Shown piece by piece: positions 15,882 to 60,775 of a DNA stretch of 64,000 bases. Origin of the DNA: Psychrobacter submarinus (GTDB lineage Bacteria; Pseudomonadota; Gammaproteobacteria; Pseudomonadales; Moraxellaceae); contig NZ_CAJHBQ010000002.1 of NCBI RefSeq assembly GCF_904846685.1, positions 620,001-684,000 of the forward strand, written 5' to 3'. Both the position numbers and the translations under genes were made by a program. The notes beneath the pieces were generated by a model. It had not been told where the DNA came from. It did no database searches and worked only from the letters and a program-made list of their open reading frames with translations. How positions within the stretch are numbered: position 1 is the first letter of the stretch; every line of letters starts with the position of its first letter.

Positions 15882-18514
15882 TGAACATGGGAGAAAGAGT
15901 AACCTTTAATGAGCTATTAGATATAGTAAACTTTATAGAAATTCCAATTATCCAGCGTGATTATGCCCAAGGACGCAAAGATCAGTCAGAGGTTAGAGAT
16001 GCTTTTTTAGACTCTCTGTTTTCAGCTCTAATCATAGATAAGACTTATGATGATCAACCGTCTCTAAATTTGGATTTTGTATATGGCGACATTGATAAAA
16101 CTGACACACTCTCAGTACTAGATGGCCAGCAGCGTCTTACAACTTTATTTTTATTACATTGGTTTTTGGCAGTAAAACATAACCATTTAACAGAGTTTAA
16201 AGCGCGTTTTACTTTAGAAGGTAATTCACGCTTTACCTATAAAACCCGTCCAAGTTCATCAGAATTTTTTGATGCTTTATTATCTAACGGTACTATCGAG
16301 CAACGTTACCATGCATTAACTAAATTTAATGTAGATCAAACAACCGAATCTAGCAAAACCAATAAATATACTATTGACCAACTCATTACTGACAGCACTT
16401 GGTTTTTTTCAGCTTGGAAACAAGACCCTACTGTGCAAGCTTGCCTTAACATGCTAAAGGCGATTGAAGAAAGATTTGCACTCTATGATGAAGATTTATA
16501 CCTGCGGATTATGGATAGCGATAACCCTTGTATCACTTTCCAATTTTTGCCCTTGAGCAAGTTTGGGTTATCTGATGAGTTATATATCAAAATGAACGCG
16601 CGAGGTAAACCCCTCACCCCATTTGAAAACTTCAAAGCTAATCTACAACAAATTATAAAGTCGTTTTCTGAAGAACTGCCTAATTATGATTTAGCAGCTA
16701 GAGGTGGTGTAGTCAATGGTTATGAGTACTTTATTCATAAGATCGACACCGACTGGGCAGATCTGTTTTGGACGTATCGGACTGTTGGTGATAAGCATGA
16801 TTCCTATGATGATGAGCTTATGAACTTTATTCGCTTAATTATTCTATACCAATATATTATCGATACTAAAAACAATGATAGTAAAAGTGAAGATAAGCTC
16901 AATACTTTTTTTGCACAAAAAGCCAAGTTGCAGCACTTAACAATAGCTCAGTACACTAAACTAAATTGTTTTACACCTAATTTTGTAACTAACCTCATGG
17001 GTCTTTTAGATCTGCTCGATCTAGATGACTATCACAACCATCATCTCAAGACTTACTTACCTGACACATATAATAAGACACATTATTCAGAAGTGTCTAT
17101 GTTCAAAAAGGTACTAGCAGATAATACTATTTATCCTGAAAAGCTACGGTTCTATGCTTTTTATCGTTTTCTCTCAAAAAAGCTCAATTCAGCTAACAAC
17201 ATTGATGCTAATGACATTCAATCTGAGCTCATTGAATGGGTACGTGTCATTTATAACTTAACTGAAAATACTATCTTTAATACCTCAAAAGACTTTTTAG
17301 AAGCTCTGTTGTCAATTGAAAAGCTAAGTAAGTTTGACTCTCCTATTTTAAATACCCTTACTGATAGACCTGGGCTCGTCTTGAGTAGAATTTCAGAAGA
17401 TCAGCTTGTTGAGGAGAAGATTAAAGCTCATTTGATATTAAGATCAGATCAGTGGAAACAGGCGATTCTAGAAGCTGAAAAACAATCATTTTTTGATAGC
17501 GATAAGAAACGTCCATTTTTTGACGGTCAAATCGGCTTCCTACTGAACTTTTCAGGTATTTTAGAGTATTACAGAGAGCATGGTGATTGTAAGTGGGAAA
17601 TGGATCAAAACAGTATATATTTTGCTAATTTTGAGAAATACGCCCAGTCAGCGGGAGCCGTTTTTGACCTACTCCAACACAACTCCTCCGACATTAATTA
17701 TATATGGGAACGCGCTGTATTAAGCAAAGGGGAATACTTTACTCAAAGAGGACAAGATCGTTATAACTTATTAAGCAGTCGCTCTACTAAACATAACATT
17801 GATCGTGATCATAGTTGGAAGAGACTACTACGCATTGGCTCTGCTTATATGAAGCGAGAAGAAACAAGTACCAAAATCGAAGAAAGACAGTCATATATAA
17901 AAGCTGTATTAGACGATAAGGATTTCGACGTTTACGATGTCAAACGTTCACTACAGAAAATCTGTGACAAAGCACTGGCTAGCAATAGTTTAGTTAAATG
18001 GCGTGCACATTTCATACAACATCCTGAGCTTTTCAAAGATTGTAAGCAAGGGTTCATTCTTAAGAATGAGGATGAGTTTGTACTGTTTAAAGAAGCCCAA
18101 CGTAACCATACGCAATATGAACTTTATACCCGTGTTATTGAAATCAAACTGAATCAAGACAAATCCTTAATTAGGCCTTTCAAGCATCTCAATTATCAGG
18201 AGGTTATGTCTAGTGCCATACCTGCCAGTCTAAAGATAGAAGGTTGGAATTATGCAAGCAGTGATTACCACTTCGAAATTATTAAGTCTTCAAACAACTT
18301 TATAATCCGATTTAAAAACGGCTCATCAAACGATTACCCTCAAAAAGTTACTGATGTGCTTGAAGGCAATGGATTTCAACACAAACATATCACAGATAAA
18401 GAAACAGGCGATGAAGCAGTGCACTACGAGATTAGCTCATTAACATCGGTAGATGACGTGATCAGTCAGCTTATTCAAACTTGTAGCTCATTGAGGAGTA
18501 TTGAGAATGAGTAA
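15881..18514 (+). CDS. DUF262 protein B
   Basis: This 877-residue protein has an N-terminal DUF262 domain: [12 protein letters not shown] near residue 20 and DGQQRLTT near 80-87. The conserved late-domain stretch [21 protein letters not shown] is at about 230. The large C-terminal half is of unknown fold; [12 protein letters not shown] near residue 635 could be a degenerate HNH element, which is weak. Coupled to protein A by a one-base overlap, it probably works with it, for example as GmrS and GmrD subunits do. Its end overlaps the start of hsdR. It is intact over 2.6 kb. Confidence 0.8.
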
Positions 18515-21500
18515 CGTCACCGACATAGAAAGACTCACTCAGAACCGTGTCATACCCTTTTTCACCGATACGCTTGGTTATCGCTATCTCGGCGACTTCA
18601 AAGACCGACCTAATAACAAAAACATTGAGTCCGAGATTTTAGCGGCGTGGCTAAGCTCACGTAATGTCAGCCGTACATTGCGAAATAGAACCATTAACGT
18701 TCTAGAAAAAGCAGCCGCTTTAGGCAGTGGCGTTAAACTATACGATGCCAATAAAGAGGTCTATAGACTACTCCGTTATGGCATCAAAGAAAAAGAAGGC
18801 ACAGGGGATCATAAAGAGACTGTCTGGTTAATTGATTGGGATAATATAGAGGCCAATGACTTTGCCATTGCCGAAGAGGTCTCCATCAATGGCGAAAATA
18901 AAAAACGTCCTGACATCGTCCTTCATGTCAACGGCATTGCACTAGGCGTTATTGAACTTAAACGCTCTAGCATCAACGTCACCGAAGGTATTCATCAAAA
19001 CTTAGATAATCAAAAGAAAGAATTTATTCGCAGCTTCTTTAGCGCCATACAATTGGTTATGGCAGGTAATGATACCCAAGGCCTACGCTATGGCACGATC
19101 GAAACGCCTGAGAAATATTACCTAGAATGGAAAGAAGCCAACCCCAATCATACACCCCAGTCTGATACTAGCGTACCGACGCACCTTACCTTAGCAAACG
19201 CTAACTTCACCGATCAGCCCTTAGACTTCCATCTGTATCATATGTGCAATAAGCACCGATTCTTAGACATCATTAATAACTTCATTGTCTTTGATTCGGG
19301 TGTCAAAAAGACTTGCTGACACAATCAATATTTCGGAATACAGGCGGCAAAAAAACACATTGCGCAGCGCAAAGATGGGATTGTTTGGCATACCCAAGAC
19401 TCAGGCAAAAGCTTAACGATCGATGGTTTGGCTGGCCAAATGGATACGGGAGAATGTCACCAATAGCCGTGTACTCATCATTACTGACCGTACCGAGCTT
19501 GATGAACAGATTGAAAAAGTCTTTTTTGGTGTCGATGAATCAATATATCGCACCAAGAGCGGTGCTGATCTTATTAGCCAGCTAAATCGGCCTAACCCTT
19601 GGTTGCTCTGCTCCCTAGTTCATAAATTTGGGCGCGGCGTTGATGATTATAACCATGATAGTAAAGACACAGACGAATTCATAAAGGACATTCAAGCCAG
19701 CCTACCGTCAGACTTTAGCCCTAAGGGCGATTTATTTGTCTTTGTTGATGAGTGTCACCGCACTCAGTCTGGCAAGCTGCACGGCGCTATGAAGGCATTA
19801 TTGCCAGAAGCGATGTTTGTCGGTTTTACCGGGACGCCACTACTCTAAAAAGATAAGAAGAAATCTATCGAAGTGTTTGGTCCTTTTATTCATACCTATA
19901 AGTTTGATGAAGCAGTTGCTGACGGTGTGGTATTGGACCTCCTGTATGAAGCACGTGATATCGATCAACAGCTTACCTCCTCTAAGAAAGTCGATGAATG
20001 GTTCGATGCTCATACTCGTGGCTTAACCAATATTGTTAAAAGCCAGCTTAAGCAAAAATAGGGAACCATGCAGCGGGTTCTGTCTAGCCAGTCGCGCATA
20101 GAGTGCATCGTCAATGACATCTTGCTCGATATGCAACAAGAACCAAGACTTATGGATGGTCATGGCAATGCCATGCTTGTGTGCAATAGTATTTATCAAG
20201 CCTGTAAATCTTATGAGGCCTTTGAGAACTCTTTCTTGAAAGGCAAAGTAGCAATTGTGACCAGTTACTTACCGACTGCAGATAGCATCAAAGGGGAAGA
20301 AACTGGCGAAGGCATGACAGAGAAGCTTTTCAAATATCGAATCTATCGTAGAATGATTGCTGATTATTATGACATCAGCGAACAAGAAGCAGGCTCTAAG
20401 GCCGAGGACTTTGAAAAGTCAGTTAAAAAACGCTTCATCGAAGAACCAGGTCAAATGCGCCTACTAATCGTCGTCGATAAACCGCTAACAGGCTTTGATG
20501 CACCTTCTGCTACCTATCTATATATCGATAAAAAGATGGCTGATCACAATCTCTTTCAAGCCATTTGCCGGGTTAATAGACTTGATGGTGCAGAAAAAGA
20601 CTATGGCTATATCATTGATTATCAAGATTTATTTCAGTCTTTAAACAGTACTATTTCTGACTATACGCAAGGCGCGTTCTCAAGATACGAAGATGAAGAT
20701 ATTGATGGGCTGTTAAAGAACCGCTTAACTGCAGCAAAACAAAACCTAGATGATGCCCTAGAGATGGTCAGAGGACTGTGTGAGCCTGTTAAATACCCCA
20801 GCAATACACAAGATTATGGCGCTTACTTTTGTCCTAGTGATGGCACGACTGAGGCCGAAAAAATAGAACAAGAACAGCTTAGACTGACCCTGTACAAAAG
20901 CGTCTCCAAGCTGATACGTGCTTATGGCAATATTGCTAATGAAATGGCGGAAGCGGGATATAGCGATCAGGAGATAAAACGCATTAAAGACGATGTAAAA
21001 CACTTTGAGTCCGTGCGTAATAACATCAAGCTTATGAGTGGCGACCATATCGATATGAAAAGCTATGAACCGACCATGCGTAGGATGCTAGACACTTATA
21101 TTCATGCCACGCCTAGTGAGACGGTCATCGACTTCGAAGATTTAGGACTTATTGAGCTTATTGTCAATCGAGGAGCTGAAGCTCTAATCAAAGCCATACC
21201 TGAAGATATAGCGAGCAACCCTGAAAACGTCGCAGAGACCATTGAAAACAATGTTCGCAAAACGATTGTGGATGAAAACCCTGTCAACCCAAAGTACTAC
21301 GAGCATATGTCTGCCCTACTCGATGAGCTCATTGAGCTACGCCGACAAAAAGCCATTGCTTACGCTGAGTACTTACAAAAGATACGCCAGCTAACCTCTA
21401 AAGTAATCAATCCAACTGGCACAGCAAGTGGTGACGCATATCCTGAGGCTATTAACACCCCTGTTAAGCGTGCACTATATGATAACTTCGATCAAAATGA

Positions 21501-21699
21501 TAACTTGGATCAAAATGAGGACTTGGCAGATAAAGTAGACGCTGCTATTAGACTCAATAAACATACTGATTGCTGGGGTCACCTAATCAAAGAGCGCAAG
21601 ATTAAAAACGCGGTGCATCAGGTCATTAAACAATATGAAGTTGATACCGACATCGACGCGCTGATTAATTTGGTTAAAGCACAACAGGAATATCAGTGA
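18507..21699 (+). pseudogene. hsdR: hsdR, type I restriction subunit, multiply inactivated
   Basis: The conceptual product has the N-terminal PD-(D/E)xK nuclease ([21 protein letters not shown]) and the SF2 helicase motor (FVDECHRTQSGKLHGA; VGFTGTPL; FDAPSATYLYIDKKM), plus the long C-terminal helical region. Lesions are: TGA at 19317-19319 where the family has Arg; a 4-base duplication CGAT at 19417-19424 that shifts frame; TAA at 19846-19848; and TAG at 20059-20061 where Trp is expected before GTMQ. The Walker A reads HTQDSGKS, with Asp for the usual Gly. The downstream 543-residue frame remains open, but no functional HsdR is possible. Confidence 0.93.
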
Positions 21700-22473: not shown

Positions 22474-23133
22474 CTACTCCTCAGCATATATCGCCTTTAA
22501 CCCAAAAGTATTAAACTCATCAGTACTACTTGAACTACAGTATATAGATGCTTCATCACCAGACAACAATCCTTCAACAGCTTCTGTCACATAAGCAATA
22601 GATTCCAGTGGTAAAGCTTGCATGCTCTGCATTCCAACTAGCACCCCTTTAGTATCACTAGCTTTTGCAAGTAAACTGATTAGATTGTATGTAACTACTT
22701 TTATCATATCGAATTCAGGCTCGCCTGTAGCACTCGCTTGAACAAACTGGAATGAATTGCCGCACTCAAACAGCCTTTTAACATCTACAACATCTATACC
22801 AATTAAGGTGCTAGCAGCCTTTACGTCAAGCAATGCAATGACATCGTTTACTTCATCAGGCCGACAATTAATAACCCCATCTATAATGTTCAGAACCTCA
22901 AACTGGCTGTCTACTGTTTGTAACCCAACTAAAAGGTAAGCGCCCGTTTTTTCTTTTAGCTCACGCAGCATCTGCTCGTTCCAATCATCGTTCATAATAA
23001 AGCAGACGATAATAGAAGGCGAAAAACAGTCCATATTTGGCTTGTATAGGGCTGTACAGGGTATGTCATTTTCGTGTGACTCATCGAGTTGATATTTCAT
23101 GACTGTATTCACCATTAATTGAGGATTCAGCAC
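22474..23133 (-). CDS. FtsZ-like protein B lacking the GTP-binding half
   Basis: This 219-residue protein is paralogous to the gene just upstream. Both share ALYKP near residue 31, GLQT.D near 72 and IIDGVINCRPDEVNDVI near 84. By eye, the order resembles FtsZ from the middle of its GTPase domain on (VDTLIVIPND...; GI.DLI.). It continues into the C-terminal activation domain, here with TGEPEFDMIKVVTYNL, GVLVGMQSMQALPLESIAYVTEAV and a closing FGLKAIYAEE. The glycine-rich GGGTGTG loop is absent, so no GTP binding is expected. It is the last gene of the PP2C-WYL-FtsZ-like unit and is more divergent than its partner. The family call is inference. Confidence 0.5.
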   Translation of the reverse strand: MLNPQLMVNTVMKYQLDESHENDIPCTALYKPNMDCFSPSIIVCFIMNDDWNEQMLRELKEKTGAYLLVGLQTVDSQFEVLNIIDGVINCRPDEVNDVIALLDVKAASTLIGIDVVDVKRLFECGNSFQFVQASATGEPEFDMIKVVTYNLISLLAKASDTKGVLVGMQSMQALPLESIAYVTEAVEGLLSGDEASIYCSSSSTDEFNTFGLKAIYAEE

Positions 23134-23209
23134 GCTCTATTAATCGTACTCCAAGCACATCAATCTACTAATATTCTCATGCTTGCTCTAGACTATACTT
23201 AGTGCATCC

Positions 23210-23887
23210 CTAACCTGCCACATATATCGCCTCTAACCTATAGTAGTTAGGCTTATCAGTGACTCTTGGGCCGTAAAACACTTCTGCATCATCAGAAATT
23301 TGGCTGTAAATAACATCTGGTACACCAGAAAATTCATCCTCAGATATCTTATGACCACTTTCAATATTGAGTACCATAGACTTAATATTAAGACTTTTAG
23401 GTGTTTGTTTTAGCAAATTATTAACGGCATATTCCAGTAGTTTTGCGCTTGGCATGCCCGTCACCTTAGTCTGTATATATCTGGCAGCCTTATCAGCGCC
23501 CCAGGGGAGTATAATATCTCTATAAACAATGCCCATCATACCCTGATGCAGTAACACCGATTCAAAAACGCTTATCACTTGCTCGACTTCATCGGCTTTG
23601 CAAATGATCATACGATCTATAATCTCGAACTTCTCAATATGCTTATCTGAAGTTTGTAGACCAAACAATGTGCCGAGACCTGTTTGTTGTTTTAACGCTA
23701 GTAATGACTGTTCATCCCAGCCGTCTTCGATAACAATAAACCCGACTTCAGATAGAACAGATATCTCTTTGTGCGGCCTATACAGCGCGACAAAGGATTT
23801 TCGCTTTTTCTGAAGCTTATTATCAGCTTCTTGAACAATATTATTAGTTAGAGATTCACTACAGTTAGAAGTACTATTTGCTGTCAT
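23210..23887 (-). CDS. FtsZ-like protein A lacking the GTP-binding half
   Basis: A 225-residue protein. Residues 130-225 read like the FtsZ C-terminal domain: TKVTGMPSAKLLEYAVNNLL matches the G.G...A..AA..A region, IKSMVLNIESGHKISEDEF matches the GvLVNItaG.dl.l.Ef motif, and DDAEVFYGPRV then YYRLEAIYVAG match the last two strands. Residues 84-125 (KFEIIDRMIICKADE ... MMGIVYRDII) match the VD.LIVIPND...GV.GISDLI stretch that precedes it. The N-terminal nucleotide-binding half with GGGTGTG is missing. The product could interact with the cell's or a phage's FtsZ/tubulin. The similarity is by eye and needs a profile or structure check. Confidence 0.55.
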   Translation of the reverse strand: MTANSTSNCSESLTNNIVQEADNKLQKKRKSFVALYRPHKEISVLSEVGFIVIEDGWDEQSLLALKQQTGLGTLFGLQTSDKHIEKFEIIDRMIICKADEVEQVISVFESVLLHQGMMGIVYRDIILPWGADKAARYIQTKVTGMPSAKLLEYAVNNLLKQTPKSLNIKSMVLNIESGHKISEDEFSGVPDVIYSQISDDAEVFYGPRVTDKPNYYRLEAIYVAG

Positions 23888-23913
23888 ATCTGCTTTCTCA
23901 TTAAATAACTCTA

Positions 23914-25005
23914 TTAATCGTTATCGTAAAGCGCCTTCCCACTTTCTAGGCGCTCCAAAATAACCGCCTTCAACTGAGCAGGTTCAACCACCACTGCCAA
24001 CTGCGACATACTCACTAGCCAGTCTTGCAAGCGCTGCGTATTGGTAACGGTCGCGCGCACCTCGTTCCAAGTATTATCGATAACCGTAATCTGCTGATCA
24101 TTTGATAATGGACGCTCATAGAGGTGCTGACACGCATATCTTTGTATTTTTAGAACTAGTCTAATTTCTAGACCATCATTCAATTCTAGCTTTCCTAGCT
24201 TACTTAGATTTTTAAGAGTGAAAGCATTGCGCGCGACCCAGTCTGGTATTGACTCATCCATGACGGCCGCTTTAGTGATACGGTTAACCGCAAAGTTTCG
24301 ATGCGCCTTCAACAAGACGTTATCGTCAATATGATCCTCTACAGGATAAAAGCCTGTTAGGTACATCATATTATCGATAAAGACTAAACCCTTAGGATAA
24401 ATCAGCTTTTCGTTAGCGCTTTCATCCCATTTTTTGCGGTAAGTAATTTTTAGCTGACAGCTATGAAGCAAAGCTTGGTGAATACTGGCGAGCACGTCAC
24501 TATCAAGTTTCGGTGCTTGTACAACACTCGGCAGGGTAATGAGATGATTTTGCCACTGCCCTAGTCTGCCTTGATTGAAGCTGGTCTTATCTTGACGATC
24601 TAACTGGTCTAGCTTGTCGCTGATACTTTGCTTGAAAGACGTTGGTAAATAGTTTGCAGTATAGTTAGCAAGCATCTGCCAAAAGAACACCGTTTGCTCA
24701 TTAATGACATCAATACTAAAGCTTGGCTCAATATAAAACCGTGCCGTCTGTCCGCTGATATTCTGACCCCAAGCTGGCTCTCTGACCAAGGCCTGACTAT
24801 AAAAAATATCGTTAAATATTTGATTAAGACTCATTAGATCGTTTTCTAAGTTTTTACGCTCATTTGCGTAGCGGTCAGGATTAGCACCATAGACACTCAT
24901 TAGCTCTGTCAGGGACATTGCGTTGACTTTGTCACGTGGTAGAAATTGATAGAGCGCAAACAAACGGGTAGATTTGTTGTAACTTGCGATTGGGTGTGTA
25001 GTCAT
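23914..25005 (-). CDS. WYL-domain transcriptional regulator 1
   Basis: The protein of 363 residues starts MTTHPIASYNKSTRLFALYQFL. I chose ATG 25003-25005 over the TTG 11 codons upstream because the family start fits. The N-terminal winged helix (FALYQFLPRDKVNAMSLTELMSVYG) is followed by the WYL sensor domain at about residues 170-260 (LKITYRKKWDES, KGLVFIDNMMYLTGFYPVED, HRNFAVNRIT) and the WCX tail. Such proteins bind DNA and often sense nucleic-acid or nucleotide signals in defence loci. It lies between PP2C and the FtsZ-like genes, all same strand and tightly spaced, and probably controls them. Confidence 0.85.
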   Translation of the reverse strand: MTTHPIASYNKSTRLFALYQFLPRDKVNAMSLTELMSVYGANPDRYANERKNLENDLMSLNQIFNDIFYSQALVREPAWGQNISGQTARFYIEPSFSIDVINEQTVFFWQMLANYTANYLPTSFKQSISDKLDQLDRQDKTSFNQGRLGQWQNHLITLPSVVQAPKLDSDVLASIHQALLHSCQLKITYRKKWDESANEKLIYPKGLVFIDNMMYLTGFYPVEDHIDDNVLLKAHRNFAVNRITKAAVMDESIPDWVARNAFTLKNLSKLGKLELNDGLEIRLVLKIQRYACQHLYERPLSNDQQITVIDNTWNEVRATVTNTQRLQDWLVSMSQLAVVVEPAQLKAVILERLESGKALYDND

Positions 25006-25072
25006 ATTGGCTGCTCTATAGGTTATTAAATCTATCAAATTATCACTTTAAAAGTGAACTGTCATAAGACAA

Positions 25073-25936
25073 CTATTCAAACCGCACCGCAATAGCCGTA
25101 CCGTTATCATAAGCATTACCATCCGAATCATAAACTTGCTGTTTGAGCGCTTGTAGCCACTCTTGTAAATCCGTTTGGTTATCGATAGGAGACCATTCAT
25201 TACTCGTTACTAAATCATGAATACCATCAGTACAGATAATGAGGCTATCACCTGATTGCACCGTGATGTTATGTCTTGTGCTCTTTGGTAGCTCGCTGCT
25301 CAGATCATCACTTTCTACGGCTAACGCAAAGCACTCGGTAATGCTATATAAGCTGCCTGCCATACCTTTTCGATTGTACTCATCAAACTCTGCTTGGCGA
25401 CCTTCTGCACGGGCTTGCTCATCGACTAGCTCATTTAATAAGTTATGATCACGAGTTAAGCACTGCCACTCTTTTGCCTCTTTGCCCAGCTTGTATACAC
25501 GACTATCACCGACATGGGTGATGTCTATATTGATTGATTTATTGTCGTTTAGTGTTCCAACGATCATGGCGAGGGTTGTCGCAGCGCCATAACGTTTTTT
25601 TGGATGTTTGGTTTGGCTCAGTTGTTTATAGATATGATCTGAGGTCATGCTTAGGACGTTTGTTTGTTTGTCATCCCATAGTGCTTTAATTGCTTTGACC
25701 ACTGCCTTTGAACAGTGCTGAGACTGATTGGAGCTAGCGACACCGTCTGATACTGCTAAGCAAAACGGCGCTTGCACTGAAGCTACAGGCATCACCCCTA
25801 ATTCCTCTTGATACCAATGATCTAAAAAGAAAAACGCATCTTGTTGTAGTCCATTACTAGCATTGCCTTTAAAGGTAATAGCGCAAGCTTGAGCTATCAT
25901 TTGGTTGGTATTTGGAACATCGTCCGTTTGGGTCAT
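25073..25936 (-). CDS. PP2C-family serine/threonine phosphatase
   Basis: This 287-residue cytoplasmic protein has the PP2C metal-binding motifs in order: QDAFFF near residue 32, LAVSDGVASSN near 60, YGAATTLAMIVG near 117, ITHVGDSRVYKL near 140, LIICTDGIHDLV near 233 and DNGTAIAVRFE at the end. The last motif usually supplies Asp-Asn for Mn binding. It would dephosphorylate phosphoserine or phosphothreonine proteins. No kinase gene is present in the window. It is the first gene of the leftward cassette, with about 470 non-coding bases upstream shared with the divergent helicase gene. Confidence 0.88.
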   Translation of the reverse strand: MTQTDDVPNTNQMIAQACAITFKGNASNGLQQDAFFFLDHWYQEELGVMPVASVQAPFCLAVSDGVASSNQSQHCSKAVVKAIKALWDDKQTNVLSMTSDHIYKQLSQTKHPKKRYGAATTLAMIVGTLNDNKSINIDITHVGDSRVYKLGKEAKEWQCLTRDHNLLNELVDEQARAEGRQAEFDEYNRKGMAGSLYSITECFALAVESDDLSSELPKSTRHNITVQSGDSLIICTDGIHDLVTSNEWSPIDNQTDLQEWLQALKQQVYDSDGNAYDNGTAIAVRFE

Positions 25937-26407
25937 GATCTTACCAGCTCATTTATTATTCTCTACTTTAACGTCAGTATAGCGGACTACCTATCAGTTT
26001 ATTTTCTAGGTTAGACACAATTTCAAATGCGTTTGAATATATATGCTCATATCATCTCTTGCTCGGATAGCTCTCCAATTAAACATTGATAAGTACAGCG
26101 CTTTTAACTTTTCTGTAGCACTTAACCCTTTCAAACAATAATAACTTGGAAGTTTAGACCTAATTAGTTCGGCTTATGTTGATAAATGCATTGATTAAAG
26201 CTACTTTTTAGAGTATAAAGCTTCTAGTTAGTCTTAACTAACAATTTCTTTTACTAGTATCTACTAATTAAACTGATAATTTATATATGTCATTAAATAG
26301 TTAATTACATGTGCTACGTGAGATACGTAAATCTTAGCATTATATAAATTATCAAGACTATTTTTGACGAAATACCTAGTCAGTGTACAGTTTATGGAAT
26401 AGCTTCT
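25937..26407. other. Divergent promoter region between the PP2C cassette and the helicase operon
   Basis: About 470 very AT-rich bases without an open frame of note. Both divergent operons must be started here. I see no strong consensus promoter or long palindrome; GCTACGTGAGATACGTAA near 26312 has a repeated TACGT core that could be a binding site. Confidence 0.35.
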
Positions 26408-28573
26408 ATGGTACTGCTAAAAACAGCTATTTTTAATCCATTTGAAAATAATTTGGACGAAGAGTTATTTTTACCTGTTGTAAAAAATGCAATCGGTTAT
26501 GACTGTATGATAGGTTATTTTAATAGTTCATCCTTTCGAGCTATAGCCCAATCACTTCTTTACTATTTACAGTCAGATGTTACTCATCGAATGCGTCTTA
26601 TCGTTAGTCCAAACTTATCGAAGGGGGATATTACTACTCTTATCAACTTGTATGAAGGTGAAGGTAAGATAGATAATGATAATGTCATTGGGTTTATTTT
26701 GAATCAAGATAGCTTAAGCCAATCAACCTTACATGCTCTAGCTTATTTAATTAAGCTGGACAAAATTGAGCTTAAAATTGCCTTACCAAAATCAGGACTG
26801 TTTCATGTTAAATGTTGGTTAATTCCGCAAAGTGATGGTAGTGAAATAATAGTTCAAGGATCAAGTAATCATACTGAAAGCGGCCTAGTCAGGAACTTTG
26901 AATATTTAAGTGTTGATTCTACTTTGATGAGTGAGCAGTCATTACATATCTGTCAAAAATTACGCAAAGACTTTGATCTGTTATGGGAGAATGACTATCC
27001 TGAAGTTACTTGTGGTAATTTGAGCTTAAATGTATTACGGGCTCTACTGCTGCAATTTTCATCTACCCAAGTTTCTAATAAATATACTAGGCAATATTTA
27101 TTAAATGCATTAAGCCAAGCTCTTAAGCAGCAGGAGTCCGAACCTATGCAACCTGAGGACTATATCTCAAACCTTGAAAGTCTTTTATCAGGCTATGAGC
27201 CTGATACGTTGACCACTCCTGATTGGCTAGACTATCGTACAGGCGATTATGCTCATCAGGGCGATGCAATAGATGCTTGGTTTGCAAATCAAAATAGAGG
27301 CATACTATCTATAGCAACAGGTGGTGGTAAAACTCTTACCTCATTAACTACTGCTACCCTATTAAGTAAGTCTTTGAAAAATATATTGATCGTTATTGCT
27401 GTTCCTACTAAGGCGTTAATGGCTCAATGGCAGAATGAAGTTGCATTGTTTGGAGCGAATGCTGTAAATCTTAATAACGTCAGCGGTTCTAAGAATAAGT
27501 TAAGTAAAATTGATCATGCTTGTAAGAACCTTAAGTTTAACTCTTCACATGTTGAGGTATTAATAGTTAGCCATAATGCTCTTAAATCTGAACTAATGGC
27601 TAGAATAAAGAGATACTCAAGATCGTTTAGTACGCTATTAATTGCAGATGAAGTGCATAACCTTGGTAGTACTGGTTTTGTAGAAAATCCACCAGATTTT
27701 TTTGATTATAAAATTGGTCTTTCGGCAACACCAATACGCCAATATGATGAAGAAGGTTCGGAATTTTTATTACAGTACTTTGGTGATGTGGTCTATGACT
27801 TCCCACTTGATAAAGCGATTGGCAAGTGCCTTGTTCCATTTGATTATTATGCTCACATTATTCACTTAACGGCAGAAGAGAATGATAATTTCTACGAGCT
27901 AACCCAAAAGATAAGACGGCTATCTTTTGCAGCCAATGCCAATAAAGATAGTATCGAGTTTCAAAATTGGTCAAGACTTTGTATCAAACGACGTAAAATT
28001 ATTGAAACCGCAGAGAATAAAATATTCAGCTTCAAGCAATGCCTTCCCTCTAAAGGCTCTGACATTAGAAATTCGCTAGTTTTTTGCAGTGACAAACAAC
28101 CAGAGCAACTTGAACTCATAAACGATATTTTAAATAAACAACATGTTAACTTCCATCAGATAACCAGTCAAGAAACCGCTAATAACGCTACCTTGAAGCA
28201 AATTATTGATGAATATAATCAAGGTAGAATACAAGTTTTAACTTCTAAACGGGTTTTAGATGAGGGGTTTAATGTACCACAAACGCAAACTGCCTATATT
28301 CTTGCCAGCAATACCACAAAAAAGCAATGGACACAACGGCTTGGACGAGTATTAAGAAAAGATAAGGGTAAAGATAGCGCTAGTATTCATGATTTTATTG
28401 TCATGCCTTCTATATCTGGTATTGTTATGGATGATGACTTTAAAAATTTATTAAAATCTGAAGCCGCACGTATACAGTTTTTTCTTCAGTTTTCAAGAAA
28501 TGGTACCGAACAAAACGGTGCAGTTGAACTTCTTGGTAAAATTGGAGATTTATTACAAGGAAAAAGGATATAA
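26408..28573 (+). CDS. SF2 helicase with N-terminal phospholipase D-type nuclease domain
   Basis: A 721-residue protein. Residues about 1-190 form a PLD-like domain with HxK in GLFHVKCWLIP (about 133) and the following GSSNHTESGL, as in NgoFVII/HKD nucleases. The helicase core follows: Walker A IATGGGKTLTS (about 303), Walker B LIADEVHNLGS (about 413), SATPIRQ, and motif VI QRLGRVLRKDKGK. It would move on duplex DNA and cut it. It starts a four-gene unit (next gene 2 bases away) inside the phosphorothioation island, so it may belong to an SspFGH-type effector arm; the letter assignment is not certain. Confidence 0.8.
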   Translation: MVLLKTAIFNPFENNLDEELFLPVVKNAIGYDCMIGYFNSSSFRAIAQSLLYYLQSDVTHRMRLIVSPNLSKGDITTLINLYEGEGKIDNDNVIGFILNQDSLSQSTLHALAYLIKLDKIELKIALPKSGLFHVKCWLIPQSDGSEIIVQGSSNHTESGLVRNFEYLSVDSTLMSEQSLHICQKLRKDFDLLWENDYPEVTCGNLSLNVLRALLLQFSSTQVSNKYTRQYLLNALSQALKQQESEPMQPEDYISNLESLLSGYEPDTLTTPDWLDYRTGDYAHQGDAIDAWFANQNRGILSIATGGGKTLTSLTTATLLSKSLKNILIVIAVPTKALMAQWQNEVALFGANAVNLNNVSGSKNKLSKIDHACKNLKFNSSHVEVLIVSHNALKSELMARIKRYSRSFSTLLIADEVHNLGSTGFVENPPDFFDYKIGLSATPIRQYDEEGSEFLLQYFGDVVYDFPLDKAIGKCLVPFDYYAHIIHLTAEENDNFYELTQKIRRLSFAANANKDSIEFQNWSRLCIKRRKIIETAENKIFSFKQCLPSKGSDIRNSLVFCSDKQPEQLELINDILNKQHVNFHQITSQETANNATLKQIIDEYNQGRIQVLTSKRVLDEGFNVPQTQTAYILASNTTKKQWTQRLGRVLRKDKGKDSASIHDFIVMPSISGIVMDDDFKNLLKSEAARIQFFLQFSRNGTEQNGAVELLGKIGDLLQGKRI

Positions 28574-28575
28574 CT

Positions 28576-28782
28576 ATGTCTATTTCATCACGTAAAATTA
28601 ATGCCATGATAGAAGATGAATTTTTAGCTACAGACTATGCAGCCGAAAATAGTAAATTACTTATCAATCTTTCGAAAGCCATTTATGCTATGGAAGCAAG
28701 TATTACAGGTCAAAGTAATCAGAAAAAGATTGAAGAAATTCGAGCTAGAATTGATGCAAAAGCAGATGATTTTATTGTTTAG
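28576..28782 (+). CDS. Small helical protein between helicase and SMC-ATPase genes
   Basis: A 68-residue charged helical protein (MSISSRKINAMIEDEFLATDYAAENSKLL; ending IRARIDAKADDFIV). It starts 2 bases after the helicase stop and ends 16 bases before the ATPase. No family recognised. Size and placement suggest a bridging subunit of the helicase/ATPase complex, which is inference. Confidence 0.6.
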   Translation: MSISSRKINAMIEDEFLATDYAAENSKLLINLSKAIYAMEASITGQSNQKKIEEIRARIDAKADDFIV

Positions 28783-28798
28783 TGAGTAAAGGATAACC

Positions 28799-30895
28799 AT
28801 GAAACTAATAAGAGCCGATATTAGAAACTTTCGCTTGTTGAAAGATTTACAGTTAGACTTTTCAACACAAACAGACAAACCATTGACTATTATTCGTGCG
28901 GCTAATGAGTCAGGCAAAACAACATGTCAGTATGCTCTTATGTGGGGTATTTGGGGTGAAGAAGGATTACCCGATAAGTATCATAATTTCAATATTGTTC
29001 CCTTTAGCGAATCTGATACGACTCAAGAAGTACCTGAAGTTACCATAGAGTTTGAAACAGAGGCTAAAGAAGATCAGCCCCACAAACGCTATCGTTTAAT
29101 CAGAAAGTACATTGAAGCATCAAACCCTCCTATTGATGACCTTACTATTTTTGAAATCCAAACTACTGGCGCTGTACCGTTATACGACGCTCAAAAAACA
29201 CAACTTATTCAAAATATTTTGCCTGAAGCCTTAAAAGACGTTTATTTCACTGATGGGGACAGAGCATTATCATTTATTGAAGCGAGTTCTAGTCCAGGAG
29301 TAAAGAAAAGACGTGTCGAGAATGCGATTAAATCATTGTTATCGTTAGACATCTTAACTGACACTATTCGCCATATAAATACAGTTTCCACTAAATTTGA
29401 GTCGGAAGTAGATAATCGCGATTATGCTCAAGAGTTTGAATTAATCAATAATCATATTATTTCATATAATGAAGATATTAAAGAGCAAACTGAACGTTTA
29501 CAAGGTTTAGAATCAAAGAAAACCCACTTAGAACAAGGCAAAAAAACAGTCAATGCAAAAATAGAAGAAATTATCAAACAAGGTGACAAAAACAAGCTTA
29601 TTGGAGAAAGAAAAAGGATACAAAGAGAGCTTGAAAGTCTGATTAGAACAGAAGCTGAATCATTAAAGACGATGCGAAATAATGTTCAAAATGAAAATGT
29701 TTCGCTTGGCCTATTAAAAGATGATTTTAATAAAACCAAATCCTATTTAGCAGATTTGAAAGATAAAAAACAGTTGCCTAAAGCTAACGTACCTATCTTA
29801 GAAGAGCTACTAGATAAACCGAAATGCTTTTGTGGCTCTAGTCTTGACGAGCTTACAGATGAAGGTAGAACACACCGTCATCATATCCAAGTTGCCATTA
29901 ATGACAGTGAAGAAGCTGATAGAAAAACTGAACTAGCAACAAGCTTACACTTTGCGATCTACCGCAGTGATACTGATAAAGCAATTGAACAGTGGGAAAA
30001 TAAATATAACTCATCTTCACAGCAATATTATAATCTAAGTAAGCTTATTAATGACAAACAGTTTGAGCTTGATAAAAAAGAAGAAGAGATTGCTCAGGTT
30101 CAAGACGATGGATTAGATATCTTTCGCACTCAACTGCGTGAATATGAGAATAAGTTGATGGAAACTGTCTCTGATATCAGTAGGGCCAATACAATCATAG
30201 ATACAAATCAGCAAAGGCTAGAAAGTAAGGAGCGAGAAAAGCAAAAAATTCAGAAAAAGCTAAATAAAAACGATAAGTCCACTAATAAAATTGAATTGTC
30301 TAAAAATTTGAAACGTGGCTTTGAAAGCATTCTAAATAAACTAAAAGGACAAGAGGTTGAGAAAGTCAGTCAAGAGATGAATCGCATCTTTTTAGATATG
30401 GTAGGATCTTCTGCTGATAACAATGAGTTTTCATCCATTACTAAAGCTGAATTAAGCCCTAGTTATGAAATATTAGTTTATGGTATGAATAGTCAGAAAA
30501 TTAATCCGGATCAAGATTTAAATGGTGCTTCAAGGCGTGCCATCACACTTGCCTTTATTCTAGCATTAACCAAAATCTCACAAGTTGAAGCCCCTAACGT
30601 TATTGATACACCGCTTGGTATGATGTCAGGTTATGTCAAGCAGTCTGTATTAAAGCAGATGGTTAAAGAAGGCACTCAAGTTATTTTGTTTTTGACTCAT
30701 GATGAAATTAATGGTGTTGAACCTTTAATTGATAGATACGCTGGCGCTGTATATACCTTAACTAATCCTGCTCATTATCCTAAAATACTGAAGAATAGAC
30801 CACCTATGGATAGTGGTAGCATCATACGCTGTGATTGCAATCATTACGAATCATGCTCAGTCTGTGCAAGAAATAACTATTTAGAGGAAGCCTAG
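28799..30895 (+). CDS. DndD/SMC-like ABC ATPase with CxC hook
   Basis: This 698-residue SMC-type protein has the N-terminal P-loop IIRAANESGKTTCQYAL (about residues 31-47). Long heptad-rich coiled coils lie on both sides of a short hinge with PKCFCGSSLDEL (about 341-352). The C-terminal signature and Walker B half (NGASRRAITLAFILALTK; NVIDTPLGMMSGYV; LFLTHDEINGV) closes the head. A further cysteine cluster CDCNHYESCSVC lies near the end. This is the architecture of DndD and other repair/defence SMC ATPases. It would bind and remodel DNA ends with the helicase and the two small proteins. Confidence 0.82.
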   Translation: MKLIRADIRNFRLLKDLQLDFSTQTDKPLTIIRAANESGKTTCQYALMWGIWGEEGLPDKYHNFNIVPFSESDTTQEVPEVTIEFETEAKEDQPHKRYRLIRKYIEASNPPIDDLTIFEIQTTGAVPLYDAQKTQLIQNILPEALKDVYFTDGDRALSFIEASSSPGVKKRRVENAIKSLLSLDILTDTIRHINTVSTKFESEVDNRDYAQEFELINNHIISYNEDIKEQTERLQGLESKKTHLEQGKKTVNAKIEEIIKQGDKNKLIGERKRIQRELESLIRTEAESLKTMRNNVQNENVSLGLLKDDFNKTKSYLADLKDKKQLPKANVPILEELLDKPKCFCGSSLDELTDEGRTHRHHIQVAINDSEEADRKTELATSLHFAIYRSDTDKAIEQWENKYNSSSQQYYNLSKLINDKQFELDKKEEEIAQVQDDGLDIFRTQLREYENKLMETVSDISRANTIIDTNQQRLESKEREKQKIQKKLNKNDKSTNKIELSKNLKRGFESILNKLKGQEVEKVSQEMNRIFLDMVGSSADNNEFSSITKAELSPSYEILVYGMNSQKINPDQDLNGASRRAITLAFILALTKISQVEAPNVIDTPLGMMSGYVKQSVLKQMVKEGTQVILFLTHDEINGVEPLIDRYAGAVYTLTNPAHYPKILKNRPPMDSGSIIRCDCNHYESCSVCARNNYLEEA

Positions 30896-30896
30896 T

Positions 30897-31343
30897 ATGT
30901 CAATGCGAAACCCTTTTGAAAGCTATCAAATTTCCATACCTAGCAAATACTCAGATAAAGTAAAACAATTTTGTAAGCAATCTAGTTCACAAACTAGTCC
31001 GCAATATACGCCTTTTAATCGCCAAGTAGATTTTTGGTATTTTGCTTTCCTCTATGCTTCTAAAGAGAATTTACCACCTGATCATTTGACAGATATGTCT
31101 AATATTACTGCTGCTAGCATTTTAGATGATTATCATATCAATCATATTCAAATGTCCTATTTAGCTAAAAATCTAGATATAGAAAGTCTAACAGACAGCC
31201 GGAAGATATTTAATTACGCAGCTGACATGGCAAATGCAGGGATTCCACATGTCATTCAATTATTAAGTGATGAAGACACTCCTTTAGATAATCTGTTTTT
31301 ACTTAGAAGAAAATATGAAGTAAATAAATATTATTATATTTAA
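30897..31343 (+). CDS. Unknown protein ending the helicase/SMC unit (DndE-like by position only)
   Basis: A 148-residue soluble protein with a mixed start (NPFESYQISIPSKYSDKVKQFC) and helical remainder, rich in Tyr and Asn. It begins one base after the ATPase stop, so it is clearly cotranscribed. I do not recognise a family. Small partners of SMC ATPases at this position exist in Dnd loci (DndE), but no convincing residue match was seen. Confidence 0.6.
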   Translation: MSMRNPFESYQISIPSKYSDKVKQFCKQSSSQTSPQYTPFNRQVDFWYFAFLYASKENLPPDHLTDMSNITAASILDDYHINHIQMSYLAKNLDIESLTDSRKIFNYAADMANAGIPHVIQLLSDEDTPLDNLFLLRRKYEVNKYYYI

Positions 31344-31443
31344 GTTATATATGCGACCTCGATGTGTCGAATCTAAGTATAGCAATGTGTACACTTACTG
31401 ATTACAATTGTCGATGTAAATAAGACCTATATAAGGAACAAGC

Positions 31444-33855
31444 ATGTCAGTAGACCCAAAAAACATATTTGAAGCCGTAACTAAACCAGTTACAGAATTG
31501 TTCTCTGATAGAGGATTAGGATTATACATCCCCTCTTATCAACGGCCTTACAGCTGGGATAAAGAAAAAGTAAATAGATTAATTGAAGATATTAGTCACG
31601 GTTTTAAACTGCTCTTAGACTCAGAGGATAGTTTTACTTTTTTAGGCACTGTTATTACTATTCATGATCATAAGCATGTGACTGTACAACCTATAGTCAG
31701 GCAAGATGTTCCAAGCAAGGTGCTTACCGTTATTGATGGCCAACAACGTATGACAACGCTCTTACTGTTATGTATGGCGCTACATAATGAGCTTTCTGTT
31801 GTTCATCAAAAGTATATTAACTATAAAAATAAAATTGAGAAAACCTTTGATCAAGAACAAAATAGCTTAGACTTTGGCGCAGAAAGGGCAGAAGAACTTC
31901 AAAGTTTTCGAGATGCTTTTGAGTGGCTTGATGGGCAAACTCGTCAGGTTATAGACGCACTCTCTAGTACATTTTATGAAAAATATCCCTATGGTGAAAC
32001 ACCTCTCTACCCTAGAATGATCAGATCATTAGATGATCAATGGTCTAAAAGCGCTAAGTCTCGTAAATATAACTCATCGATTGCCCATCTCATTACAACA
32101 TATATCGAAGAGATTGAAGGCACAGATTATAAAACATCTCAGTTCAAGCCAGTAAAACGTTCAGATCAGAATATAGAAGGAGAAGAAGCTTTAGTTAATC
32201 GCTTTAACCAACTTAAAAGCTTACTAAAAAAGCTGGGCAAAAGTAACGATGAAGAGATTCAAGAAGTTCCAACTAATGAAGAGTTATATGATTCCGAAGT
32301 TTTACAATTAGGTCTACTTAATCATGTTGCCCCCATTGATAGTATTAAAAAAGTAAGTGAAGAGTATCGCAAACAGTTTGATGAGCTCTCTTTACTTATG
32401 TTTTATGCAAACTACGTTCTAAGCCGGGTTGTTGTAACTGTAGTTCAAGGTAAAAACGAAGACTATGCTTTTACTATTTTTGAGTCTCTGAACACTACAG
32501 GCGAACCGTTGACAGCATTTGAAACTTTTAAACCACGCGTAGTAGGATCAGTTGAATTAGAGAACTATGAGCAGTCTGAAGAAAAAGCTCTCATGGATGA
32601 GATATCTAATTATCTTAGCCAGTTTTCTGCTGGCAAAGATCTGCAAAAAGAAACAATGGCGTTATTGATTGATTTTTTTGGGGCATATGCAGGCAAGAAA
32701 GTACCGCGTAGGTTAGCAGACCAACGTTCTGCCTTGAAGGTAGGATTCGAAGAGGCACAAGAAAGCTCAAACTCTAAGAAAGAAAAACTAAGATTTATTG
32801 AAACTATGCGAGATGTTGCTAATTTTAGGCATTATTTTTGGGACGCAACTAGCTTTAATGATACTCATAAATTCATTGGTCACTTAAAGCTCTCTAGTAC
32901 GTCGAAACTATGTTTAACTTTTTTAAATGACCTCAAACATACTATTGTTATCCCAGTATTGACTAACTTTTTTACACAAATCAATAATGCAGAAACTATA
33001 GAAGAAAAGAAAGCGAGGCTTCATGATTTTGAAGAAGCACTTAAAGCTATTGTTGCCTTTAGTGTTTTATGGCGTGCGTCGAGAAATGGCACAGGAGGTA
33101 TCGATAATCAATATCGTGAGCTGCTTAGTTCAACTGATATGGACTCTGGCTTACCCTCCATGGCTAGAAAACACTTACAGGATGATCTGATTGATATAAA
33201 TCTATTCAAGAAGGAGATGAAATTACGCTTAATTGATTCAGGTCATAAAGGCGCTTTAAAAAATAAAAATAACTTTATAGATCAAGCAAGTGAACTGCCT
33301 ATCTATAATATTAATAAAAAAGTTGCAAAGTTCTTATTACTTGCTGCTCATCATAATGCTGTAGAGGATAATAATAACCCTGGACTTCTAATAAAAGGTA
33401 AAGAGGCTTTAAACCCTTGTCTATCGTCTGATATGTATACAGATGAGAGAAACTTATCCTTAGAACATGTTGCTCCTCAGACATACAGCAGCCAATGGGA
33501 TGAAGAGATATACGCTAAAGGCTCACTTGTACACACTTTAGGCAACTTAGTCTTAGTATCATCAAAACTAAACTCTTCACTAAGTAATAGAGTTTGGAAT
33601 GAAAAACGTGTTCTATATCGCGCTGTTGGTGCTAGAACAGAAGAAGAATCATACGATATTTTAAGAGATGCTGAACATAATCAAAACTTTCAACTTCGTA
33701 ACAGCACTAAAGATGTTATTGAGGCGCAAAGTTATATGCCAAACTTAGTAGCATTAAGCAAAATGGAGGCTAAATGGAGTGCTGACTGGATTGAGCAACG
33801 CTCAAAGCATCTATATTCATTAGTTTGGGATGAGTTAATAGAATGGTTTGAGTGA
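31444..33855 (+). CDS. sspE: SspE-like PT-dependent restriction protein (DUF262 + DUF1524 HNH)
   Basis: This 803-residue protein has the DUF262 domain with YIPSYQRPYSW (about residue 30) and DGQQRMTT (about 98-105). The C-terminal DUF1524 HNH domain has LSLEHVAPQTYSSQWDE (about 671) and HTLGNLVLVSSKLNSSLSNRVW. This is the layout of SspE, the effector that senses phosphorothioate DNA through DUF262 and nicks invading DNA with its HNH domain. It is convergent with sspBCD, whose products make the mark. It has its own ribosome site ATAAGGAAC and follows the helicase unit by 100 bases. The 803-residue length fits the family. Confidence 0.85.
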   Translation: MSVDPKNIFEAVTKPVTELFSDRGLGLYIPSYQRPYSWDKEKVNRLIEDISHGFKLLLDSEDSFTFLGTVITIHDHKHVTVQPIVRQDVPSKVLTVIDGQQRMTTLLLLCMALHNELSVVHQKYINYKNKIEKTFDQEQNSLDFGAERAEELQSFRDAFEWLDGQTRQVIDALSSTFYEKYPYGETPLYPRMIRSLDDQWSKSAKSRKYNSSIAHLITTYIEEIEGTDYKTSQFKPVKRSDQNIEGEEALVNRFNQLKSLLKKLGKSNDEEIQEVPTNEELYDSEVLQLGLLNHVAPIDSIKKVSEEYRKQFDELSLLMFYANYVLSRVVVTVVQGKNEDYAFTIFESLNTTGEPLTAFETFKPRVVGSVELENYEQSEEKALMDEISNYLSQFSAGKDLQKETMALLIDFFGAYAGKKVPRRLADQRSALKVGFEEAQESSNSKKEKLRFIETMRDVANFRHYFWDATSFNDTHKFIGHLKLSSTSKLCLTFLNDLKHTIVIPVLTNFFTQINNAETIEEKKARLHDFEEALKAIVAFSVLWRASRNGTGGIDNQYRELLSSTDMDSGLPSMARKHLQDDLIDINLFKKEMKLRLIDSGHKGALKNKNNFIDQASELPIYNINKKVAKFLLLAAHHNAVEDNNNPGLLIKGKEALNPCLSSDMYTDERNLSLEHVAPQTYSSQWDEEIYAKGSLVHTLGNLVLVSSKLNSSLSNRVWNEKRVLYRAVGARTEEESYDILRDAEHNQNFQLRNSTKDVIEAQSYMPNLVALSKMEAKWSADWIEQRSKHLYSLVWDELIEWFE

Positions 33856-60000: not shown

Positions 60001-60535
60001 AGCGAACCTCAGCAATTAGCTCAGAGAAAGGTGGTATCTTAGTGTGCTGCTGATTGCGGTATAGACTGGTTTGGTAATCGTAGTGATGACGCTTGAGACC
60101 TTTAATATCTAAAATGTACTGTATGGTCAGAGGTTTATTAAATAGCGCTTGTTGCATCTGAGCGGGCATACTGCTTTTTATAGCCTCAAAAACTTTTGGG
60201 TTGATAGGATTTACATCGATAAACTCATTCATAAGACAGGACCAAGCACGTCGCTCAATCTCTGCTTTAGAAAAACCTACTCTTCTAATGGATATTTCAG
60301 TGCCGTTCGTTAGCAAACCTACTTCTCTAAAACTTTCAAAAAAATAATACTGCTCGTCTATTTCAACGACTTCTAATAATAGCGCCCTATCTAAAGAAAA
60401 CGCATCAACTTCAGCTTTGAAAAACTCACAGAATATCTGATAAGGCTTCCTGGCACATTCGTGCACTACCAAATTGTTTTTTATGGCAATGCTTTTGACG
60501 CTTCGCCTCACTACTTTTTTAGTACGCTTCGCCAT
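59984..60535 (-). CDS. Small third member of the recombinase trio
   Basis: A 183-residue protein starting MAKRTKKVVRRSVKSIAIKNN (ATG 60533-60535), with a strongly basic N-terminus and a soluble remainder (YYFFESFREVGLLTNGTEISI; LDIKGLKRHHYDYQTSLYR). No family recognised. It is the first gene of the leftward trio and overlaps the second by 17 bases. A DNA-binding accessory role for the two large recombinase-like proteins is likely from its charge and position. Confidence 0.62.
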   Translation of the reverse strand: MAKRTKKVVRRSVKSIAIKNNLVVHECARKPYQIFCEFFKAEVDAFSLDRALLLEVVEIDEQYYFFESFREVGLLTNGTEISIRRVGFSKAEIERRAWSCLMNEFIDVNPINPKVFEAIKSSMPAQMQQALFNKPLTIQYILDIKGLKRHHYDYQTSLYRNQQHTKIPPFSELIAEVRYDNNN

Positions 60536-60775
60536 AATCAATGACCTACACGTTAGAGATATGCAGCATACAAAATCGATTATCTTCGATAGGGCAGGTA
60601 TGCAAAAAGTTTTTGGTTGGTGTCATAATACCATAATAATATAGTGTCCAGAAATATATTCATGCTATTAATATACTTGTTATTTACAAATTATAATATA
60701 TAATAGAAACCACCAAACCCTTTAACAACAAGGCATATAGACTAATAAAACTTTATGTAATTTTGGTCGACGCCA
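60536..60775. other. Non-coding right margin of the island
   Basis: About 240 AT-rich bases between the trio and the tRNA-Gly 3' copy. It should contain the trio promoter and perhaps the outer end recognised by the trio. No clear repeat was found. Confidence 0.35.

Follow-up and report, generated by a model that had tools for sequence, protein, structure and literature searches.

FtsZ-derived proteins behind a PP2C-WYL head in Psychrobacter: a possible switch for cell division

Here, we describe a cassette of four genes from Psychrobacter submarinus, found in a window of 64,000 nucleotides (RefSeq assembly GCF_904846685.1, contig NZ_CAJHBQ010000002.1, positions 620,001 to 684,000 of the forward strand); coordinates are those of the window unless a locus is named. 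The cassette encodes a PP2C-type phosphatase, a WYL-WCX regulator and two paralogous proteins, A and B, which derive from FtsZ and which we call FtsZ mimics. The mimics have lost the nucleotide-binding pocket of FtsZ while keeping an aspartate of its T7 loop, they co-occur with the phosphatase and regulator across genomes, the cassette promoter carries a conserved element, and the best match of the mimics is the FtsZ of the host's own genus. From the sequences we favour, with a probability of about 0.42, the reading that the cassette is a WYL-switched division block, triggered by stress or infection, in which pocketless FtsZ subunits would poison the filaments of the host.

The Genes of the Cassette

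The four genes lie close together on the minus strand. The first encodes the phosphatase (25073..25936), which matches Pfam PP2C_2 at E = 2.3e-10; in an alignment of six proteins its DG, GDSR, DG and DN positions, which we take to be the catalytic motifs, are invariant. The regulator (23914..25038, minus strand) matches WYL (E = 8.5e-10) and WCX (E = 1.1e-8). Its N-terminal region has no Pfam match and resembles a helix-turn-helix by eye only, and the protein matched no solved chain at E <= 0.1. Mimic A (23210..23887, minus strand, 225 aa) matches FtsZ_C below the Pfam cutoff (E = 0.0015). Mimic B, which has no Pfam match, is recognized through its homology to A and may be read on the minus strand from an ATG (22474..23100, 208 aa) or from a GTG (22474..23133, 219 aa). 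The ATG at 23100 is probably the start, as the closest database entries are 208 aa long and the family opens with MKYQ. The intergenic gaps are 34 bp between the phosphatase and regulator genes, 26 bp between the regulator and A, and 76-109 bp between A and B, depending on the start of B. The initial annotation, made from the sequence alone, had proposed four close-set genes on one strand for a phosphatase, a WYL regulator and two paralogous unknowns, and the reading frames and domain matches bear this out. The paralogy follows from a search with A as the query, which finds B at E = 3.9e-22 and 29% identity.

No family above cutoff in Pfam, NCBIfam or PADLOC accounts for A or B, and the absence of any Pfam or NCBIfam match over cutoff led us to reject an ordinary housekeeping family for the pair. 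On the cassette, PADLOC 2.0.0 returned nothing for A or the phosphatase, a homing endonuclease at E = 0.011 for B, and two CRISPR-associated WYL models for the regulator; none of its models of catalogued defence systems fits the four genes. VMAP/EAD-type adaptor domains were not found in them by Pfam, which may not hold such models, and Rfam gave no match between 7000 and 62000 of the window.

FtsZ Without Its Nucleotide Pocket

The initial annotation had called the two proteins FtsZ-derived, and several comparisons agree. FtsZ_C is matched at E <= 1 by 21 of 30 sampled members of the A family (best E = 1.3e-4), and a profile-profile match to FtsZ has a probability of 94 and E = 1.2e-7 over 94 columns. 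A has the fold and topology of FtsZ and specifically the fold of its C-terminal domain. A protein search with B returned 99 relatives. Relatives listed under an organism name all belong to Psychrobacter, and Psychrobacter arcticus 273-4 has an A-type and a B-type gene, Psyc_1380 and Psyc_1378. Sequence searches of the PDB gave nothing for the A profile at E <= 1 and nothing for the B profile at E <= 10.

What the mimics have lost is as telling as what they keep. In A, the stretch ahead of the Rossmann-like strands is too short for the GTP-binding loops, and in the alignment the T1-T4 loops and the GGGTGTG GTP-binding domain have no counterpart in A, in B, in the mimics fused to leucine-rich repeats (LRR-type, described below) or in those of a second genus, g82. 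The conserved C-terminal peptide of FtsZ is likewise missing from the Psychrobacter A, B and LRR-type mimics in the alignment. The T7 loop, by comparison, is largely preserved: among 245 distinct mimics the second aspartate is kept in 242 and the first in 231. B carries both (GIDVVDV), and A (GIVYRD) keeps the second.

The same annotation had also considered action on a phage tubulin/FtsZ process. The best structural and sequence matches are to cellular FtsZ, closest of all to that of the host genus, and a phage tubulin origin is unsupported. Phage records, searched with A only and without the viral contigs, gave no match.

A Constant Head and a Variable Tail

Close relatives of the WYL regulator occur in 46 of 105 Psychrobacter genomes, in 52 copies. 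Forty-two genomes hold both the head (PP2C-WYL) and a mimic, four the head only, five a mimic only and 54 neither, an association with a Fisher p of 4.6e-19 that is not corrected for kinship. The co-occurrence of the unknown genes with PP2C and WYL elsewhere, on which the initial annotation had staked its proposal, is thus borne out. A mimic lies within 6 kb of 46 of the 52 heads, and a head within 6 kb of 64 of the 84 mimics. As dozens of genomes share this association of genes, whose median pairwise ratios of nonsynonymous to synonymous substitution (dN/dS) are 0.15-0.33, the cassette is more than a chance grouping.

We examined 54 head neighbourhoods, including the window and two WYL genes of the second genus; many loci end at contig ends, and the counts are therefore lower bounds. 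A PP2C gene is found directly upstream of the regulator in at least 43 of the 54, and an FtsZ mimic in the tail of at least 45. Beyond these, the contents are shuffled: DUF1810 (Pfam E = 8.8e-51; it has one solved relative, Rv1873) in at least 29, a PD-(D/E)XK nuclease (PDDEXK_4, E = 2e-25) in at least 29, and a fusion of leucine-rich repeats (LRR) to a mimic in at least 14, of which one is broken and one lies in a likely frameshifted reading frame of locus L102. A GmrSD gene lies within 10 kb in at least 21 of the loci. Eight heads are followed by a mimic with neither DUF1810 nor a recognized nuclease; among them L086 continues into a GmrSD pair, and L028 and L073 reach the contig end, so that in about five cassettes the mimics alone may be the whole output. 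The conserved unit is the PP2C-WYL head with a variable tail, and the set of four genes represents one such combination. The order PP2C-WYL-A-B with no other recognized tail gene occurs only in the window. The expectation of the initial annotation that four-gene synteny would extend across genera thus held in part: the cassette is present in two genera in rearranged form, and the intact set is not repeated among the 54 heads.

The LRR fusions involve A-like mimics in L027, L028 and others and a B-like mimic in L076, and as both kinds occur, the fusion probably arose at least twice. A single reading frame in L102 that joins PD-(D/E)XK, LRR and mimic segments was considered as a triple fusion and set aside; it is most likely a frameshift, the nearly identical sequence of L029 being two reading frames.

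Some relatives depart from this arrangement. Headless mimics at L133 9741-10406, L134 2968-3642 and L135 9454-10101 have a shifted T7 loop and no aspartate at the near-invariant position; in L133 a gene for a small Gly/Ala-rich protein adjoins the mimic. Mimics of 240-260 aa share an alike chromosomal setting in three Psychrobacter genomes (L138 10027-10749, L139 9832-10614, L140 9414-10196), a PP2C-WYL head being absent from the 20 kb examined, and may be a resident version. Divergent PP2C-WYL heads are found in L101 (10717-13403) and L098, with WYL identities of 54-58% and no mimic in their tails, which instead encode a protein of 156 aa, a PD-(D/E)XK nuclease and a small product, apparently membrane-bound as judged by eye.

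The Promoter

Upstream of the PP2C gene, a palindrome of the form AACCTA-N13-TAGGTT, which at 25988..26012 (minus strand) reads AACCTA-N13-TAGGTA, lies over the -35 region, and 6 bp past it stands a -10 box, TATACT (25976..25981, minus strand). A promoter scan of the window found no sigma-70 pair and no usual -35 box at the cassette promoter. We compared 38 PP2C upstream regions after removal of near-identical ones. The palindrome is present with at most two mismatches in 36 and with at most one in 20; of 760 Markov-shuffled controls, 73 reach two mismatches and none fewer. In 33 regions the half-sites of the palindrome are 13 bp apart and a -10 box with one mismatch or none follows 6 bp on; 30 of these have the element 144-154 bp before the codons for GNASN. 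The exact TATACT at this spacing occurs in 29 of the 38; L090 pairs the palindrome with TATGAT, and L082, L094 and both g82 loci lack the element.

Within its own genome the exact sequence ACCTAGAA-N10-TAGGT occurs once, at the cassette promoter. Looser patterns do not stand out: with two mismatches the window holds 4 against 3.6 expected, and with one mismatch 11 genomes hold no more than the reversed control. The case for an operator rests on conservation at the promoter position. The palindrome is a putative binding site of the WYL regulator, and the cassette shares with BrxR/DriD-type WYL regulators an inverted repeat at the own promoter and a WYL-WCX core.

The Second Genus and Wider Distribution

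Within the Moraxellaceae (299 genomes of 16 genera, E <= 1e-12), mimics occur in Psychrobacter and g82 only, and the PP2C head is confined to the same two of 16 genera (46 of 348 genomes, E <= 1e-40). No relatives were found outside Psychrobacter in 390 genomes of the order at E <= 1e-12, and 369 genomes of the class returned the own genome only at E <= 1e-9, although weaker relatives may exist. Among plasmid records one, the Psychrobacter plasmid pP62BP1 (NC_019274.1), holds a mimic (L167 5914-6579), annotated as hypothetical; a HicA-type toxin gene lies near it and an LlaMI-type restriction gene some kb off.

In g82, locus L160 (genome G210) reads PP2C (52% identical), a mimic of 261 aa, a mimic of 259 aa, SIR2 (Pfam E = 1.4e-18) and GmrSD_N (E = 1.2e-29); a WYL gene (42% identical) lies about 5 kb past the PP2C gene. 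The mimics of this genus keep an FtsZ-like C-terminal peptide: the two in L160 end in IREYLKRQQHNKKS and IKEYLRRQW, and the FtsZ of g82 in SIQDYLRRQQNR. On the opposite strand near the PP2C-mimic-mimic run lies a 630-aa fusion of a mimic to FtsK (L160 9823-11715), which retains a recognizable motor (E = 4.8e-33) and gamma domain (E = 1.2e-23). Its Walker A motif reads GRSKETIT where FtsK of g82 has GTTGSGKS, and Walker B is changed too; judged by these motifs, the fused FtsK is apparently ATPase-dead. Its FtsK half shows little host preference, with 39.6% identity to the own genus and 37.9-38.3% to two others, in a comparison for which five genera, Psychrobacter included, gave no sequence. In genome G185, a mimic remnant adjoins a SIR2 gene among transposases, and in G200 PP2C, SIR2 and WYL genes share one contig without a mimic.

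The association of the head type with restriction neighbourhoods extends beyond that of the mimics. In Acinetobacter, three of five loci with a relative of the phosphatase (31-33% identical) continue into a GmrSD pair, in one case with two transposase-like reading frames in between, and in the proteobacterial loci L214 and L215 the PP2C gene adjoins a WYL gene.

Resemblance to the FtsZ of the Host

Five of the six mimic profiles score highest on the FtsZ of their own host genus. The comparison covered Psychrobacter, 10 other Moraxellaceae genera and 16 other Gammaproteobacteria; FtsZ here, and likewise in the alignment, the profile-profile comparison, the site counts and the tree, was taken as reading frames with GGGTGTG, in some sets from the plus strand only, which gave 11 of the 16 Moraxellaceae genera. 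On Psychrobacter FtsZ the profiles of A score 29.6-33.4 bits, of B 26.7-35.0 and of the LRR-type 23.4-26.7, where the next best FtsZ reaches at most 19.6, 14.6 and 23.1. The g82 mimics score 66.1 bits and the FtsK-fused mimic 25.4 on g82 FtsZ, against at most 36.9 and 7.4 on that of Psychrobacter. With the tail cut off, the host-match scores are still 58 against 32 bits. The sixth profile set (FZX, FZY) gave no host signal.

Site by site, the host signal is weak. At 72 sites where the FtsZ of the two genera differ, matches to Psychrobacter and g82 number 10.0 and 1.9 for A, 9.0 and 3.5 for B, and 6.5 and 2.2 for the LRR-type; the g82 mimics are even (8 vs 9 and 9 vs 9), and only their BLOSUM sums lean to g82. 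The matching sites fall mostly at host FtsZ residues 272-289, though the counts are small, and even for g82. In a tree, 22 mimics fall on one side of a branch against FtsZ (support 99/97); long-branch warnings attach to this tree, and trimming removed four FtsZ rows. Separate births of mimics from the FtsZ of each host were considered and find no support in this tree. A single origin of the mimics, with later convergence or gene conversion in the direction of host FtsZ, would fit both the host matching and the one mimic branch, and the sequences are suggestive of it.

How the Cassette May Act

In the division block that we favour, the WYL regulator would respond to a signal, which by analogy with DriD may be single-stranded nucleic acid, and would bind the palindrome over the -35 region to turn on PP2C, WYL and the tail, a step that the operator supports. 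Judging from their anatomy, the mimics would dock with their T7 face on the GTP face of host FtsZ; as a mimic could neither bind GTP nor take the next subunit, filaments would be capped or destabilized and division would stop. FtsZ interface mutants can act as toxic cappers, although a search for a source paper found nothing. Tail nucleases, where present, would act alongside, and dephosphorylation by PP2C may tune or reset the state. We count in favour of this reading the FtsZ fold of A and the profile-profile match to FtsZ, the missing T1-T4 loops, the retained T7 aspartates, the roughly five heads with mimics as a possible sole output, the conserved promoter element, the precedent of DriD and the best match to host-genus FtsZ.

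Other observations pull the opposite way. Of the 52 heads, six are without a mimic inside 6 kb, and of the 84 mimics 20 lie away from heads, several of both at contig ends; in g82 the operator is not clearly present. In A the first T7 aspartate is gone, the structure model is of low confidence (pLDDT, the predicted local distance difference test, 57.7) and the TM (template modelling) scores to FtsZ are 0.34-0.41. The model of B reaches a confidence of 52.3 with a best PDB match at E = 6.3e-3, and we draw no support from B alone. The LRR fusions and the variety of nuclease tails would be easier to explain with a sensor than with a simple poison. Moreover, BrxR, the other studied WYL family, represses (PMC9122601), and the sign of regulation could go either way.

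Such a sensor is the main rival and in our estimate unlikely. The mimics would copy the inhibitor-binding face of FtsZ as decoys, and an inhibitor from a phage or elsewhere would be sequestered or would trigger the nucleases of the cassette. Plant immune receptors with integrated decoys offer a parallel, and the LRR-mimic fusions (14 of 54 heads), the PD-(D/E)XK tails (29 of 54) and the mimic-FtsK fusion, which with its changed Walker A and B would place two divisome proteins, both apparently dead, in a single polypeptide, are what one would expect. The mimics also evolve at about twice the rate of the head (median dN/dS 0.30-0.33 vs 0.15-0.16), and the host-matching residues 272-289 are presumably near the surface of FtsZ bound by SulA, MinC and MciZ. 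Against this, LRRs are generic binding modules, and about five cassettes have no recognized effector besides the mimics. The fuller version, in which the Moraxellaceae would have turned duplicated divisome proteins into dead, host-matched mimics of FtsZ and FtsK, shuffled these among LRR and nuclease partners under the control of PP2C and WYL, and used them as bait to detect phage proteins that attack division, seems to us unlikely.

We rate two further explanations as improbable, and about equally so. The mimic could serve as an adaptor, carrying nuclease, SIR2 or phosphatase partners to the divisome or putting them together, without itself poisoning FtsZ. The shuffled partners, the LRR and FtsK fusions and the FtsZ-like C-terminal peptide of the g82 mimics suit a scaffold, but the Psychrobacter A, B and LRR-type mimics lack that peptide, and tails with mimics only exist. 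Alternatively, the cassette may not be for defence at all and may control growth of Psychrobacter in cold or starvation, travelling in islands; it is restricted to the Moraxellaceae at the thresholds used, and PP2C and WYL proteins are general regulators. Its patchy distribution (head in 46 of 105 genomes), the presence of a GmrSD gene no further than 10 kb away in 21 of 54 loci, the integrases or other restriction genes near many, and the Acinetobacter phosphatase relatives followed by GmrSD pairs in three of five loci argue otherwise. That A and B, adjacent and diverged to 29% identity in the window, are a toxin and its antidote is highly improbable, several cassettes having one type without the other.

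Should the division block be real, a truncated version of a cell's own FtsZ would be a genetically encoded filament poison, or, on the decoy reading, bait; in either case immunity or DNA-damage signalling would be tied directly to the Z ring. It would also provide a natural pocketless probe of FtsZ polymerization, and defence islands would gain a modular system recognizable by its operator. The operator, the T7 aspartate and the LRR and FtsK fusions are the marks that make the cassette findable and testable.

The Island

The flanks are as the initial annotation had them, a dead restriction locus on one side and a phosphorothioation module on the other. HsdR is broken into three reading frames (18501..21699, plus strand), the first of which matches HSDR_N at E = 3.1e-40; they share 93-96% identity with pieces of a relative of 1056 aa. 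On the opposite side lies a phosphorothioation-linked restriction module (26408..33855, plus strand), in which PADLOC recognizes PbeA-like, PbeC/DndD-like and SspE proteins and which includes a 148-aa reading frame without a match. Before its PbeA-like gene, at 26364-26391, is a promoter-like TTGACG-N16-TACAGT with an ACCTAG half-site inside; the WYL regulator might reach this module too.

Two GmrSD_N proteins (14055..15881, E = 2.2e-33, and 15881..18514, E = 7e-21, both plus strand) precede HsdR, and a tyrosine integrase (7497..8747, plus strand; Phage_integrase E = 4.8e-21), 82% identical to an integrase near other cassettes, marks the left of the island. An integrase-bearing trio forms the other flank (54602-60541), and many other cassettes lie near relatives of either integrase. 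Further genes of the island encode PAPS-reductase, AAA, DUF4007, class-V aminotransferase, HerA and dynamin-like proteins. The trio at 54602-60541 (about 190, 750-770 and 1050 aa, with a large integrase) recurs beside cassettes, as in L026 10607-16620; where scanned, the two smaller products gave no match in Pfam.

Comparison With Known Systems

FtsZ itself shares with the mimics the fold of its C-terminal half and the T7-loop aspartates, and the FtsZ of the host genus is the closest; the mimics differ in being about half as long, in lacking the nucleotide-binding loops and, for A, B and the LRR-type, the C-terminal peptide. Small proteins that bind FtsZ and stop division include SulA, MinC, MciZ, phage Kil and T7 Gp0.4, and to our knowledge none of these is derived from FtsZ. 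No report of the cassette was found in the open-access literature, most subscription papers being outside this coverage.

Two WYL regulators come nearest to the head. DriD of Caulobacter is an activator that binds single-stranded DNA, has sites overlapping the -35 region and drives the division inhibitor DidA and the endonuclease BapE; it shares with the cassette a WYL regulator and a palindromic site at -35, with division inhibitor and nuclease as the outputs of DriD. In contrast to the mimics, DidA is described as a binder of FtsN and not as derived from FtsZ, and the passages on DriD available to us mention no defence cassette of such a make-up (all PMC12340889). BrxR likewise stands beside restriction and phage defence genes and binds inverted repeats at its own promoter; it acts as a repressor through repeats immediately downstream of the promoter, whereas the palindrome of the cassette is upstream of the -10 box (PMC9122601).

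For the tail, the closest precedent is the class of NTP-dependent conflict systems, where, in the sections consulted, FtsK domains predicted to be inactive and rare FtsZ/tubulin homologues are predicted effectors; such dead division domains make up about 7.5% of effector domains and are mostly MinD/ParA-like (PMC7159879). The cassette differs from these systems in that FtsZ mimics, often duplicated, are its main output and stand under a PP2C-WYL head. Precedents cover both halves of the cassette, WYL-driven division inhibitors on the one side and inactive FtsK or rare FtsZ domains as predicted effectors on the other.

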